DNA of 43,078 bases from Tepidimonas aquatica. Its GTDB lineage: Bacteria; Pseudomonadota; Gammaproteobacteria; Burkholderiales; Burkholderiaceae_C. Position 1 is the first letter of the stretch. Every line of letters begins with the position of its first letter. A program made the translations under genes and the position numbers. Below the pieces are notes generated by a model. That model saw only the letters and a program-made list of their open reading frames with translations. It made no database searches and had not been told where the DNA came from. Positions 6,124 to 8,983 of this stretch are shown here, in pieces. The DNA lies in contig NZ_VJNA01000023.1 in NCBI RefSeq assembly GCF_007556585.1, positions 1-43,078 on the forward strand, in the 5' to 3' direction.

Positions 6124-7260
6124 TCAGCCGCGCTGCCGCCGGCGCTGCGCGACCGCCGCGGCCAGCGTGTCCAGCACCTGCAGCGAGGTGTCCCAGTCGA
6201 TGCAGGCGTCGGTGATGCTCTGACCGTAGGCCAGCTTGGCCGGGTCGTCCTTGCCTGGGGTGAACTTTTGCGCGCCGGCGCACAGGTGGCTTTCCACCAT
6301 CACCCCGAAAATGCGCTGCGAGCCAGACGCGATTTGCGCGGCCACGTCGCGCGCCACGTCCACCTGGCGCTCGTGCTGCTTTTGGCTGTTGCCGTGGCTG
6401 CAGTCGATCATCACGCGCGCCGGCAGCTTGGCGTCGGCCAGCTGCTGGCAGGCGATGGCCACGCTGTCGGCGTCGTAGTTCGGCAGCTTGCCGCCGCGCA
6501 GGATGACGTGGCAGTCGGGGTTGCCTTTGGTGCGCACGATGGCCACCTGGCCGTTTTTGTGCACCGACAAAAAGTTGTGCGGGCGGCTGGCGGCCAAGAT
6601 GGCGTCGGTGGCGATGCGGATGTTGCCGTCGGTGCCGTTTTTGAAGCCGATCGGCGCGCTCAGCCCCGAGGCCAGCTCGCGGTGCACCTGGCTTTCGGTG
6701 GTGCGCGCGCCGATCGCCCCCCACGAGATCAGGTCGGCGATGTACTGCGGGCTGATGACGTCGAGAAATTCGCTGGCCGCCGGCAGGCCCAACCGGTTGA
6801 TTTCGATCAGCAGCTGGCGCGCGATGCGCAGCCCCTCATCGATGCGGAAGCTCTCGTCCAGGTACGGGTCGTTGATCAGCCCCTTCCAGCCGACGGTGGT
6901 GCGGGGCTTTTCGAAGTACACCCGCATGATGATTTCCAGCGTGTCCGCGTGGCGGTCGCGCTGCTCTTTCAGCCGCCGGGCGTACTCCATGGCCGCGGCG
7001 GGGTCGTGGATCGAGCACGGCCCGATGATGACCAGCAGCCGGTCGTCCTTACCGTGCAGGATCTGGTGGACGGCGCGGCGCGTGTGCGTGATGAGCTTTT
7101 CGATCGCGGTGCCCCGAATCGGAAAAAAGCGGATCAGGTGCTCGGGCGGCGGCAGCACGGTGATGTCCTCGATGCGTTGATCGTCGGTCTGGCTGGTGCG
7201 GTCGGCCGGGTGCGCGTACCACGCATCGCTCAAGCTGGGTTTGGCGGGGCTCGGGCTCAT
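6124..7260 (-). CDS. aroG: 3-deoxy-7-phosphoheptulonate (DAHP) synthase, class I
   Basis: The product has 378 residues and catalyses the first step of aromatic amino acid synthesis, phosphoenolpyruvate plus erythrose 4-phosphate to DAHP, in the cytosol. Class I motifs are clear: GPCSIHDPAAAMEYA, EKPRTTVGWKG, GARTTESQVHRELASG and the metal-site DCSHGNSQK. An earlier in-frame ATG exists (7278), but 7260 is chosen because AAGGAG lies 9 nt upstream of it. It is preceded by an aromatic-rich leader ORF and a terminator hairpin, so expression is probably set by attenuation. Which of Phe, Tyr or Trp inhibits the enzyme cannot be told by eye. Confidence 0.95.
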   Translation of the reverse strand: MSPSPAKPSLSDAWYAHPADRTSQTDDQRIEDITVLPPPEHLIRFFPIRGTAIEKLITHTRRAVHQILHGKDDRLLVIIGPCSIHDPAAAMEYARRLKEQRDRHADTLEIIMRVYFEKPRTTVGWKGLINDPYLDESFRIDEGLRIARQLLIEINRLGLPAASEFLDVISPQYIADLISWGAIGARTTESQVHRELASGLSAPIGFKNGTDGNIRIATDAILAASRPHNFLSVHKNGQVAIVRTKGNPDCHVILRGGKLPNYDADSVAIACQQLADAKLPARVMIDCSHGNSQKQHERQVDVARDVAAQIASGSQRIFGVMVESHLCAGAQKFTPGKDDPAKLAYGQSITDACIDWDTSLQVLDTLAAAVAQRRRQRG

Positions 7261-7293
7261 GATCGGGACTCCTTGCATCGTGCGGATCGGGGC

Positions 7294-7325
7294 AAAAAAA
7301 AACCGCCGGTGTTGCCACCGACGGT
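7294..7325 (-). terminator. Intrinsic terminator (attenuator) before aroG
   Basis: On the minus strand the 5' arm ACCGTCGGTG (7325-7316), a GCAA loop (7315-7312) and the 3' arm CACCGGCGGT (7311-7302) form a 10-bp stem with one G-T pair. Nine T follow (7302-7294). It stands between the leader ORF stop and the aroG ribosome binding site, so readthrough is needed for aroG expression from the leader promoter. Confidence 0.9.
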
Positions 7326-7345
7326 TGGGGGGTTGGATGCGCGCT

Positions 7346-7429
7346 TTACTGGGGGCGACTTCCGTCCTCTCGACCGCCGGTGGAGCCAGAGAACCAAAAG
7401 TAGCCAAAGTAAAAGCTGCGCCGTTGCAT
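7346..7429 (-). CDS. Aromatic-rich leader peptide of the aroG attenuator
   Basis: This is a 27-residue ORF, ATG 7429-7427 to TAA 7348-7346. Residues 6-13 read FYFGYFWF: four Phe, two Tyr and one Trp codon in eight positions. Such clusters mark leader peptides whose translation slows when the matching charged tRNAs are scarce. The ORF ends 20 nt before the terminator stem. A TACATT -10-like box with a TGC extension ends 7 nt before the ATG and no Shine-Dalgarno is visible, so the leader message may be leaderless. All three aromatic end-products could be sensed, which fits the common first enzyme of the pathway. Confidence 0.87.
   Translation of the reverse strand: MQRRSFYFGYFWFSGSTGGREDGSRPQ
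7373..7382 (-). promoter_or_regulatory. Anti-terminator strand: exact copy of the terminator 3' arm
   Basis: CACCGGCGGT inside the leader ORF, nine bases after the last aromatic codon, is identical to the 3' arm of the terminator (7311-7302). It can pair with the same 5' arm (7325-7316) and so exclude the terminator. This is the expected logic of a two-state attenuator. Confidence 0.78.
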
Positions 7430-7436
7430 GGCGACC

Positions 7437-7442
7437 AATGTA
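7437..7442 (-). promoter_or_regulatory. Extended -10 element of the aroG leader
   Basis: TGC-TACATT on the minus strand (hexamer 7442-7437) lies 7 nt before the leader ATG. It matches four of six consensus positions and has the TGn extension. A convincing -35 is not seen at 16-18 nt. Confidence 0.5.
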
Positions 7443-7516
7443 GCACAGTTTGCTTGACACGCGGCTGACAGCCCGCCGACGCGCGTGGCGCCGCCGCAAC
7501 AGCGCGGCCAGGCGGG

Positions 7517-8983
7517 TCAGGCCGTGCCGCCCACCGTCAGGCCGTCGATGCGCAGCGTGGGCTGCCCCACCCCCACCGGCACGCTTTGGCCTTCTTTGCC
7601 GCAGGTGCCGATGCCAGCGTCGAGCTGCAAGTCACGCCCGATCATGCGCACGCGCTTGAGCGCTTCGGGGCCGCTGCCGATCAGCGTGGCGCCCTTGACC
7701 GGGTAGGCCAGTCGGCCGTTTTCAATCCACCACGCGCTGCTGGCCGAAAAGACGAACTTGCCACTGGTGATGTCCACCTGCCCACCGCCGAAGTGCGTGG
7801 CGTACAGGCCACGCTGCACGCTGGCGATGATTTCCTGCGGATCGTGCGGGCCGGCCAGCATGTAGGTGTTGGTCATGCGCGGCATCGGCAGGTGGGCGTA
7901 GCTTTCGCGCCGGCCGTTGCCGGTGGCCGCCACCCCCATCAGCCGCGCGTTGAGGCGGTCCTGCATGTAGCCGCGCAAGATGCCGTCTTCGATCAGCACG
8001 TTGCACTGGGTCGGCTCGCCCTCGTCGTCGATGTTGAGCGAACCGCGCCGCCCCGCCAACGTGCCGTCGTCCAACACCGTGACGCCCTTGGCGGCCACGC
8101 GCTGGCCGATGCGGCCACTGAAGGCGCTGGAGCCTTTGCGGTTGAAGTCGCCCTCCAGCCCGTGGCCGACCGCCTCGTGCAGCAGCACGCCGGGCCAGCC
8201 CGGGCCCAGCACCACCGTCAGCTCGCCCGCCGGCGCCGGGCGTGACTCCAGGTTGGTTAGCGCCGCGCCGACGGCTTCGTCCACGTACTGCGCCAGCAGC
8301 GCGTCGTCGAAGCGCTCCAGTCCCCAGCGTCCACCGCCGCCCGACGACCCCACCTCGCGCCGCTGGCCCTGCTGCGCGATCACCGTCAACGACAGGCGCA
8401 CCAGCGGGCGCACGTCGGCGGCCAGCACCCCGTCGGCACGGGCCACCAGCACCACGTCGTACTCGGCGGCCAGACCCGCCATCACCTGCACCACGCGCGG
8501 GTCGCGTGCACGCGCCATGCGCTCCAGCCGCTCCAGCAGCGCCACCTTGGCCGCGCTGTCCAGCGTGCCGATCGGGTCGTGCGCGTCGTACAGCTGGCGC
8601 GACGCCGCCACGCGACGCCGCCACCGGCGCAGGTCGGCCTGCTGGGCGGCGCCCAGGCGGCCAATGGCGCGCACGCTGTCGGCGGCTTCGCGCAGCGCCG
8701 CCCAGCTCAGGTCGTCGGAGTAGGCAAACGCGGTCTTGTCGCCGCTGATGGCGCGCACCCCCACGCCTTGGTCGATGCTGAAGCTGCCAGTCTTGACGAT
8801 GCCCTCTTCCAGGCTCCAGCCTTCGCTGCGCGTGTACTGGAAGTACAGGTCCGCGTCATCCACGCCGGGCCCCATGATGCGTGCCAACGCCCGGCGCAGG
8901 TGGGTTTCGTCCAATCCGTAGGGCTCAAGCAGCAACATGCGCGCCGTGGCCAGGCGCTGCAGGGTCGGTTCGATGGCGATCAT
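7517..8983 (-). CDS. tldD: Metalloprotease TldD
   Basis: The product has 488 residues and is one half of the TldD/TldE protease, which in other bacteria processes modified peptides and degrades unfolded ones in the cytosol. The zinc motif [11 protein letters not shown] (HExxxH) is intact, followed by [15 protein letters not shown]. The C-terminal [15 protein letters not shown] and GTCGKEGQ are family hallmarks. An ATG at 8992 would add three residues, but it lies inside TACAAT (8996-8991), a -10-like box 7 nt before ATG 8983, so the inner start is preferred. No tldE/pmbA partner is in the window. It is followed on the same strand by the aroG leader. Confidence 0.93.

Follow-up and report, generated by a model that had tools for sequence, protein, structure and literature searches.

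In enterobacteria, leader-peptide attenuators control pheA, trp and pheST. A multivalent attenuator is found at Escherichia coli ilvGMEDA, where one leader carries codons for three end products. DAHP synthase is the gate through which carbon enters all aromatic amino acids; in E. coli this control is divided among three isozymes together with TyrR and TrpR. Attenuation of trpEDCBA and pheA in gammaproteobacteria is described, and TrpR and TyrR regulons are reconstructed in gammaproteobacterial lineages, in the portion of PMC5343134 consulted here. The consulted part of PMC7298713 presents trpL of Sinorhizobium meliloti as a leaderless leader ORF whose RNA starts at the ATG, and ascribes to peTrpL and rnTrpL an extra function in trans.

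The window analyzed here is the whole stretch of 43,078 nucleotides from contig NZ_VJNA01000023.1 of Tepidimonas aquatica. The original prediction had placed a 27-residue ORF at 7346..7429 just upstream of a DAHP synthase gene, in which eight positions hold four Phe, two Tyr and one Trp codon, and a strong intrinsic terminator behind it. Each of these elements was found again: the ORF has exactly these coordinates and lies on the minus strand (the prediction had named none), the run FYFGYFWF occupies 7414-7391, and the protein encoded downstream matches TIGR00034 (aroFGH) with 536 bits. In the order of transcription, the locus comprises the following features.

7437..7445, minus strand: predicted extended -10 promoter element TGC-TACATT (consensus GTGCTACATT)
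Roughly one nucleotide ahead of the leader ATG, minus strand: predicted transcription start; no Shine-Dalgarno motif at the leader ORF
7346..7429, minus strand: leader peptide ORF MQRRSFYFGYFWFSGSTGGREDGSRPQ, 27 codons, ATG at 7429, TAA at 7348-7346
7391..7414, minus strand: control codons F-Y-F-G-Y-F-W-F (exact pattern match G000:C16:7391-7414)
7384..7393, minus strand: segment 1, the 5' side of hairpin 1:2 (covariation of the hairpin)
7373..7383, minus strand: segment 2, CCACCGGCGGU, common to hairpin 1:2 and the antiterminator, including 10 nt identical to the terminator 3' arm
7367..7371, minus strand: GAGAG, closing the 3' side of hairpin 1:2 (single folds and covariation)
7315..7326, minus strand: segment 3, the terminator 5' arm and partner of segment 2 (11 bp at 7325-7315)
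7294..7311, minus strand: segment 4, the terminator 3' arm and U tract
7326-7294, minus strand: intrinsic terminator with an 11-bp stem, a GCAA loop and nine T
6124..7260, minus strand: aroG, start at 7260 with AAGGAG in front

This arrangement is very probably a ribosome-mediated transcription attenuator of aroG that answers to Phe, Tyr and Trp. A short leader ORF carries several codons for pathway products, an intrinsic terminator lies between ORF and gene, a mutually exclusive antiterminator is available (11 bp in the window, with co-variation between families) and, as in a multivalent attenuator, codons for several end products adjoin the switch. Like the pheA, trp and pheST attenuators of enterobacteria, the locus combines a leader ORF rich in end-product codons with alternative antiterminator and terminator helices; unlike them, its leader encodes all three aromatics, would control DAHP synthase and has no Shine-Dalgarno motif. 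It shares with E. coli ilvGMEDA the use of one leader with codons for three end products, but there these are branched-chain amino acids, and gene and sequence differ. S. meliloti trpL, a Trp leader located before trpE(G), has the leaderless start that is predicted for the aroG leader.

Seven aromatics within eight residues occur in one of the 78,547 stretches in the six frames of the window, whereas 20 Markov copies of the window reached at most four. The best 80 aroG loci of 590 relatives were collected by a scan of genome contigs with AroG, and a leader, defined as a short ORF with at least four aromatics in ten residues followed by a terminator-like hairpin, precedes the gene in 71 of them (64 of the 71 with six or more aromatics). 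The nine loci without a leader are L054, with only 7 nt of contig left upstream, the Cupriavidus loci L056 and L076, the Polynucleobacter loci L068, L069, L073 and L074, and finally L095 and L098. Markov copies and conservation rule out a chance origin of the aromatic ORF. This bears directly on the idea that the hairpin is the terminator of the upstream gene tldD and the aromatic ORF a coincidence. Although tldD does lie on the same strand as the leader and ends at 7517, this explanation is barely credible: besides the exclusion of chance, a TldD C-terminal signature is found upstream of only 60 of 102 leaders, the leader is conserved apart from tldD, and the predicted promoter box is positioned between tldD and the leader.

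A covariance model, R1, was built from 72 leaders, the one of the window included. It matches 116 of 120 genomes of the family, representing 115 of 119 genera, each with a best match at E of at most 1.6e-10. Among good-quality genomes of the family, 103 of 105 are matched; the four unmatched genomes have a completeness of 55 to 90%. Across the order, R1 finds a match at E of at most 1e-6 in 36 of 160 genomes, at least one of them by chance; 30 of these 36 loci were fetched and aroG is present at all 30. The match in G044, far from its only aroG, is taken as a chance hit, that in G066 lies before its aroG, and the aroG check leaves out G056, G110, G142 and G144. Across the class, eight of 229 genomes are matched, namely three members of the family, G424 and G576 from another order, both with an aroG and leader, and three others with no aroG in the stretches fetched. 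When the 59 best-scoring R1 loci from family and order were retrieved (window included), 58 carried aroG with a leader, and the remaining one, L127, ends at a contig end. Many genomes of the family contain a second, weak R1 match (about 27-35 bits among the matches listed, e.g. G305:C50:4074-4168 and G383:C21:31941-32046); these could be generic terminators or other leaders. A search of 300 genomes for the exact run FYFGYFWF, which is too narrow for finding leaders, gave an exact match only in the genome of the window and matches with up to two mismatches in 17.

A further view of the order was obtained from 52 genomes drawn across it, 36 of which contain an aroFGH gene. Inspection of 30 aroFGH loci across the order revealed 11 clear leaders, two doubtful ones (L163, L174) and 17 loci with none. 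By the test set in the original prediction, peptide and hairpin should be conserved upstream of aroG in Burkholderiales, with synonymous changes in the aromatic codons and drift elsewhere. The 71 of 80 loci with both aromatic ORF and terminator-like hairpin bear this out, yet most sampled families of the order are without the leader. The drift is seen in the part of the peptide that follows the aromatic run, which varies among leaders and differs between families. In six of 72 leaders (L027, L028, L038, L053, L055, L075) a stop codon even falls inside hairpin 1:2, where GGATGAGAG replaces GGACGAGAG; the peptide is shorter and the RNA otherwise kept.

The synonymous variation is evident from the codon counts of the 72 leaders, with 192 TTT and 104 TTC for Phe and 69 TAC and 46 TAT for Tyr. 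The aroG genes of the same loci contain 135 TTT and 477 TTC, so that TTT makes up 65% of the Phe codons in the leaders versus 22% in the genes behind them. The position of the codons was analyzed in 103 leaders labelled f1, which consist of 31 from f1 genomes and the first 72; a few of the 72 (L091, L096, L099) fall elsewhere in the AroG tree despite this label. In 67 of the 103, the four final codons of the run include Phe, Tyr and Trp, compared with a mean of 33.6 and a maximum of 50 in 2000 permutations. The first four codons of the run contain all three in only nine of 103 (permuted mean 22.1). In 48 later leaders, i.e. 50 minus two duplicates of the discovery set (L204 = L047, L209 = L031), the last-four arrangement is present in 36, with a permuted maximum of 29.

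Trp occurs in 91 of the 103 leaders, in 74 of them one codon before the last aromatic, in eight at the counted end of the run and in nine only further upstream. It is missing from the other 12, as well as from leaders read in families f8 (two), f11 (two), f20 (one) and f44 (two). The claim that the leader covers all three end products of the pathway is supported by the placement of the codons in both leader sets, but not borne out by the leaders that lack Trp. A narrower interpretation is that the attenuator effectively senses only Phe (and Tyr), with a Trp codon that is incidental or retained by RNA structure. It can appeal to the Trp-less leaders and to the predominance of Phe, the most numerous aromatic with 296 of 473 aromatic codons in the 72 leaders. 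Against it stands the persistence of Trp in most leaders, predominantly at one place, and the hairpin is still predicted with other codons at the usual Trp position (TTTGCATTC, TATTTC), so TGG is not demanded by structure. We regard a switch limited to Phe and Tyr as rather unlikely, and an attenuator responding to all three amino acids as the better reading.

The RNA of the window can form three competing helices: hairpin 1:2, terminator 3:4 and antiterminator 2:3. Hairpin 1:2 directly follows the control codons and sequesters the motif GGCGG. In the alignment, with a register chosen by hand from single folds and then counted, both partners have changed in seven of its nine pairs, and pairing is seen in 83.5% of cells. 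Compensatory examples are GUCC/GGAC versus GACC/GGUC, and CCGG/CCGG in Variovorax-like leaders. Terminator 3:4 is paired in 99.3% of cells. Hairpin and terminator jointly exceed 500 shuffles and slid registers in both covariation score and percentage paired. The stability of hairpin 1:2 relative to shuffled sequences is modest (mean z -1.1, 44 of 72 below -1), and in Variovorax-like leaders z is near or above 0. RNAalifold on the MAFFT alignment returned the terminator only and no hairpin 1:2.

Segment 2 can take the 5' arm of the terminator because it repeats the 3' arm. In the window the copy is 10 nt long; copies of at least this length arose in only two of 5000 shuffles. The resulting 11-bp antiterminator (-20.9) competes with an 11-bp terminator (-19.2). 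Across the alignment, 78.8% of cells are paired in the antiterminator. Three positions change together: the base of segment 2 that precedes GGCGG, the 5' arm base opposite it and the corresponding base of the 3' arm. They read C:G:C in f3, f10, f12, f40 and 68 of 94 f1-labelled leaders and U:A:U in f4, f11, f13, f32, f44 and one of three f23 leaders. This set comprises 115 of 130 leaders, the other 15, the window among them, lacking the searched pattern. A standard antiterminator pair is found at the co-varying position in 96 of the 115, and a 5' arm with A is accompanied by a segment 2 with U in 13 of 14 leaders, which amounts to few independent events because the families are related. A swap test on the first 72 leaders detected no coevolution of segment 2 and 5' arm: 3743 of 5000 between-species permutations were as good as the native combination. 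Only 18 of the 72 have a native antiterminator duplex that outperforms each of 50 shuffles. Because the leaders are related, none of the permutation counts given here is a probability.

Conservation of the RNA beyond the peptide, including the leaders in which a stop codon interrupts the hairpin and the nucleotides are otherwise kept, might suggest an RNA switch read by a protein or a small molecule, for which translation of the ORF is unneeded. This is highly improbable: the aromatic residues are retained despite synonymous changes in their codons, their order depends on position, and the window has no match to a riboswitch or T-box of Rfam. At the level of sequence, a conserved leader ORF with Phe, Tyr and Trp codons, a hairpin 1:2, a terminator 3:4 and a segment 2 predicted to be able to pair with segment 3 could be demonstrated.

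In the proposed mechanism, transcription would begin at or beside the leader ATG and ribosomes would translate the leader while the RNA is being made. With charged Phe-, Tyr- and Trp-tRNA available, the ribosome would run through and segment 2 would be covered or held in hairpin 1:2; being unavailable, it would allow the terminator to form and aroG would stay untranscribed. Shortage of any of the three would stall the ribosome in the last codons (Y-F-W-F), where it would cover segment 1, so that segment 2 could pair with segment 3 and RNA polymerase would read into aroG. One RNA would in this way test all three end products of the pathway.

When the window RNA is folded with a mask reaching 15 nt past the ribosome and the A-site at Y, F or W before the last F, the prediction flips from hairpin 1:2 plus terminator to the antiterminator, a flip that is sensitive to the footprint chosen and is not reproduced by L196, a leader from the same genus. 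Masked equilibrium folding as proof of codon specificity was accordingly rejected as not robust. Equilibrium folds contain the terminator in 94 to 101 of 102 leaders whatever codon is masked. When transcripts end at the 5' arm, this arm is predicted to pair with segment 2 in 102 of 102 leaders if the ribosome stalls at the penultimate codon, in 65 if it stalls at the last one, in at least 97 for earlier codons and in 60 without a ribosome. Order and timing of folding together with ribosome cover must therefore decide.

Transcription starts about seven bases after a -10 hexamer. In 96 of 103 leaders such a hexamer has its end 6-8 nt upstream of the ATG, and an extended TG is present in 94, whereas for the spacing 200 shuffles yielded a mean of 2.6 and a maximum of seven leaders; the same spacing is found in 45 of the 48 later leaders. 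An SD-like 4-mer is absent from 101 of 103. From the position of the box and the lack of a Shine-Dalgarno motif, the leader mRNA is predicted to be leaderless, with 0-2 nt before the ATG. A simple sigma-70 scan of the window that required both -35 and -10 hexamers found no promoter. In f3, f8, f10, f11, f20 and f32, and in some leaders of f4 and f23, the box is not at a distance of 6-8 nt; the predicted leaderless start is therefore lineage-bound. Upstream of its start, the aroG frame runs across the terminator without a stop codon as far as a GTG at 7446 (6124-7446, minus strand), giving a mechanical ORF of 440 residues; a gene caller could take this GTG as the aroG start and thereby hide the leader.

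With its predicted start at the leader ATG, the short RNA resembles rnTrpL in general layout, and an extra function of leader peptide or terminated RNA in trans is conceivable by analogy with peTrpL/rnTrpL of S. meliloti, as presented in the consulted part of PMC7298713. Such a role appears very unlikely here, since the families do not share the peptide sequence that follows the aromatic run.

In the genome of the window (97 contigs, 99.97% complete), aroG is the only DAHP synthase gene found. PF00793 matches aroG and one KDO8P synthase, TIGR00034 has one match and PF01474 none. Many relatives possess two TIGR00034 genes. A connection between loss of the Trp codon and a second DAHP synthase was considered and is unsupported: in a comparison of 48 genomes (the leader of G066 was not read), two TIGR00034 copies are present in five of 19 genomes with a Trp-less leader versus 13 of 28 with a Trp leader, and leader Trp does not follow copy number. 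A class II DAHP synthase was found in none of the 48. Family f23 contains tandem aroG pairs on one strand, the first gene behind the leader (G022:C1:2636369-2638520, G152:C1:2562495-2564623).

On an AroG tree of 57 rows, picked and not randomly drawn, the leader occurs in both deep AroG groups, in 14 of 21 and 18 of 36 rows. A single origin of the leader on this tree was rejected, as nine changes are needed, at least six of them forced by supported branches. The aroG and leader of L081, from a gammaproteobacterial record (Solimonas sp. SE-A11), are placed with Rhizobacter in the tree, reflecting either transfer or contamination. A more far-reaching proposal, for and against which we see the balance as even, is that the leaderless RNA would act as an OR gate with Phe, Tyr and Trp codons in the last four positions, where a stall would free segment 2, that it would replace the isozymes and TyrR/TrpR of E. 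coli, and that, given its occurrence upstream of aroG genes from two lineages with a deep split between them, the switch may have been retained, lost or transferred independently of the descent of the gene.

At the gathering score no Rfam family matches the window. Relaxing E to 10 gives seven matches, all to unrelated families and below their thresholds, with no leader family (Phe_leader, Trp_leader and others) among them; for 18 loci at the gathering score, the only match is SRP RNA. NCBIfam has no family for the leader peptide of the window and Pfam none for four leader peptides. The parts of the literature consulted, including PMC2965389, PMC5343134 and PMC7298713, describe no aroG leader; subscription literature lay mostly outside this search, so an earlier prediction is possible. 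Multi-amino-acid attenuators and a leaderless leader already exist, and the aroG leader would be an unusual combination of them.

The element is present in 115 of 119 sampled genera of the family and lends itself to inclusion in Rfam and in genome annotation. It offers a clean system for asking how the position of a stalled ribosome is read with three kinds of control codon and a 5' UTR that is predicted to be nearly absent. A pan-aromatic attenuator, if true, would provide one-gene control of pathway entry in a genome with one DAHP synthase.
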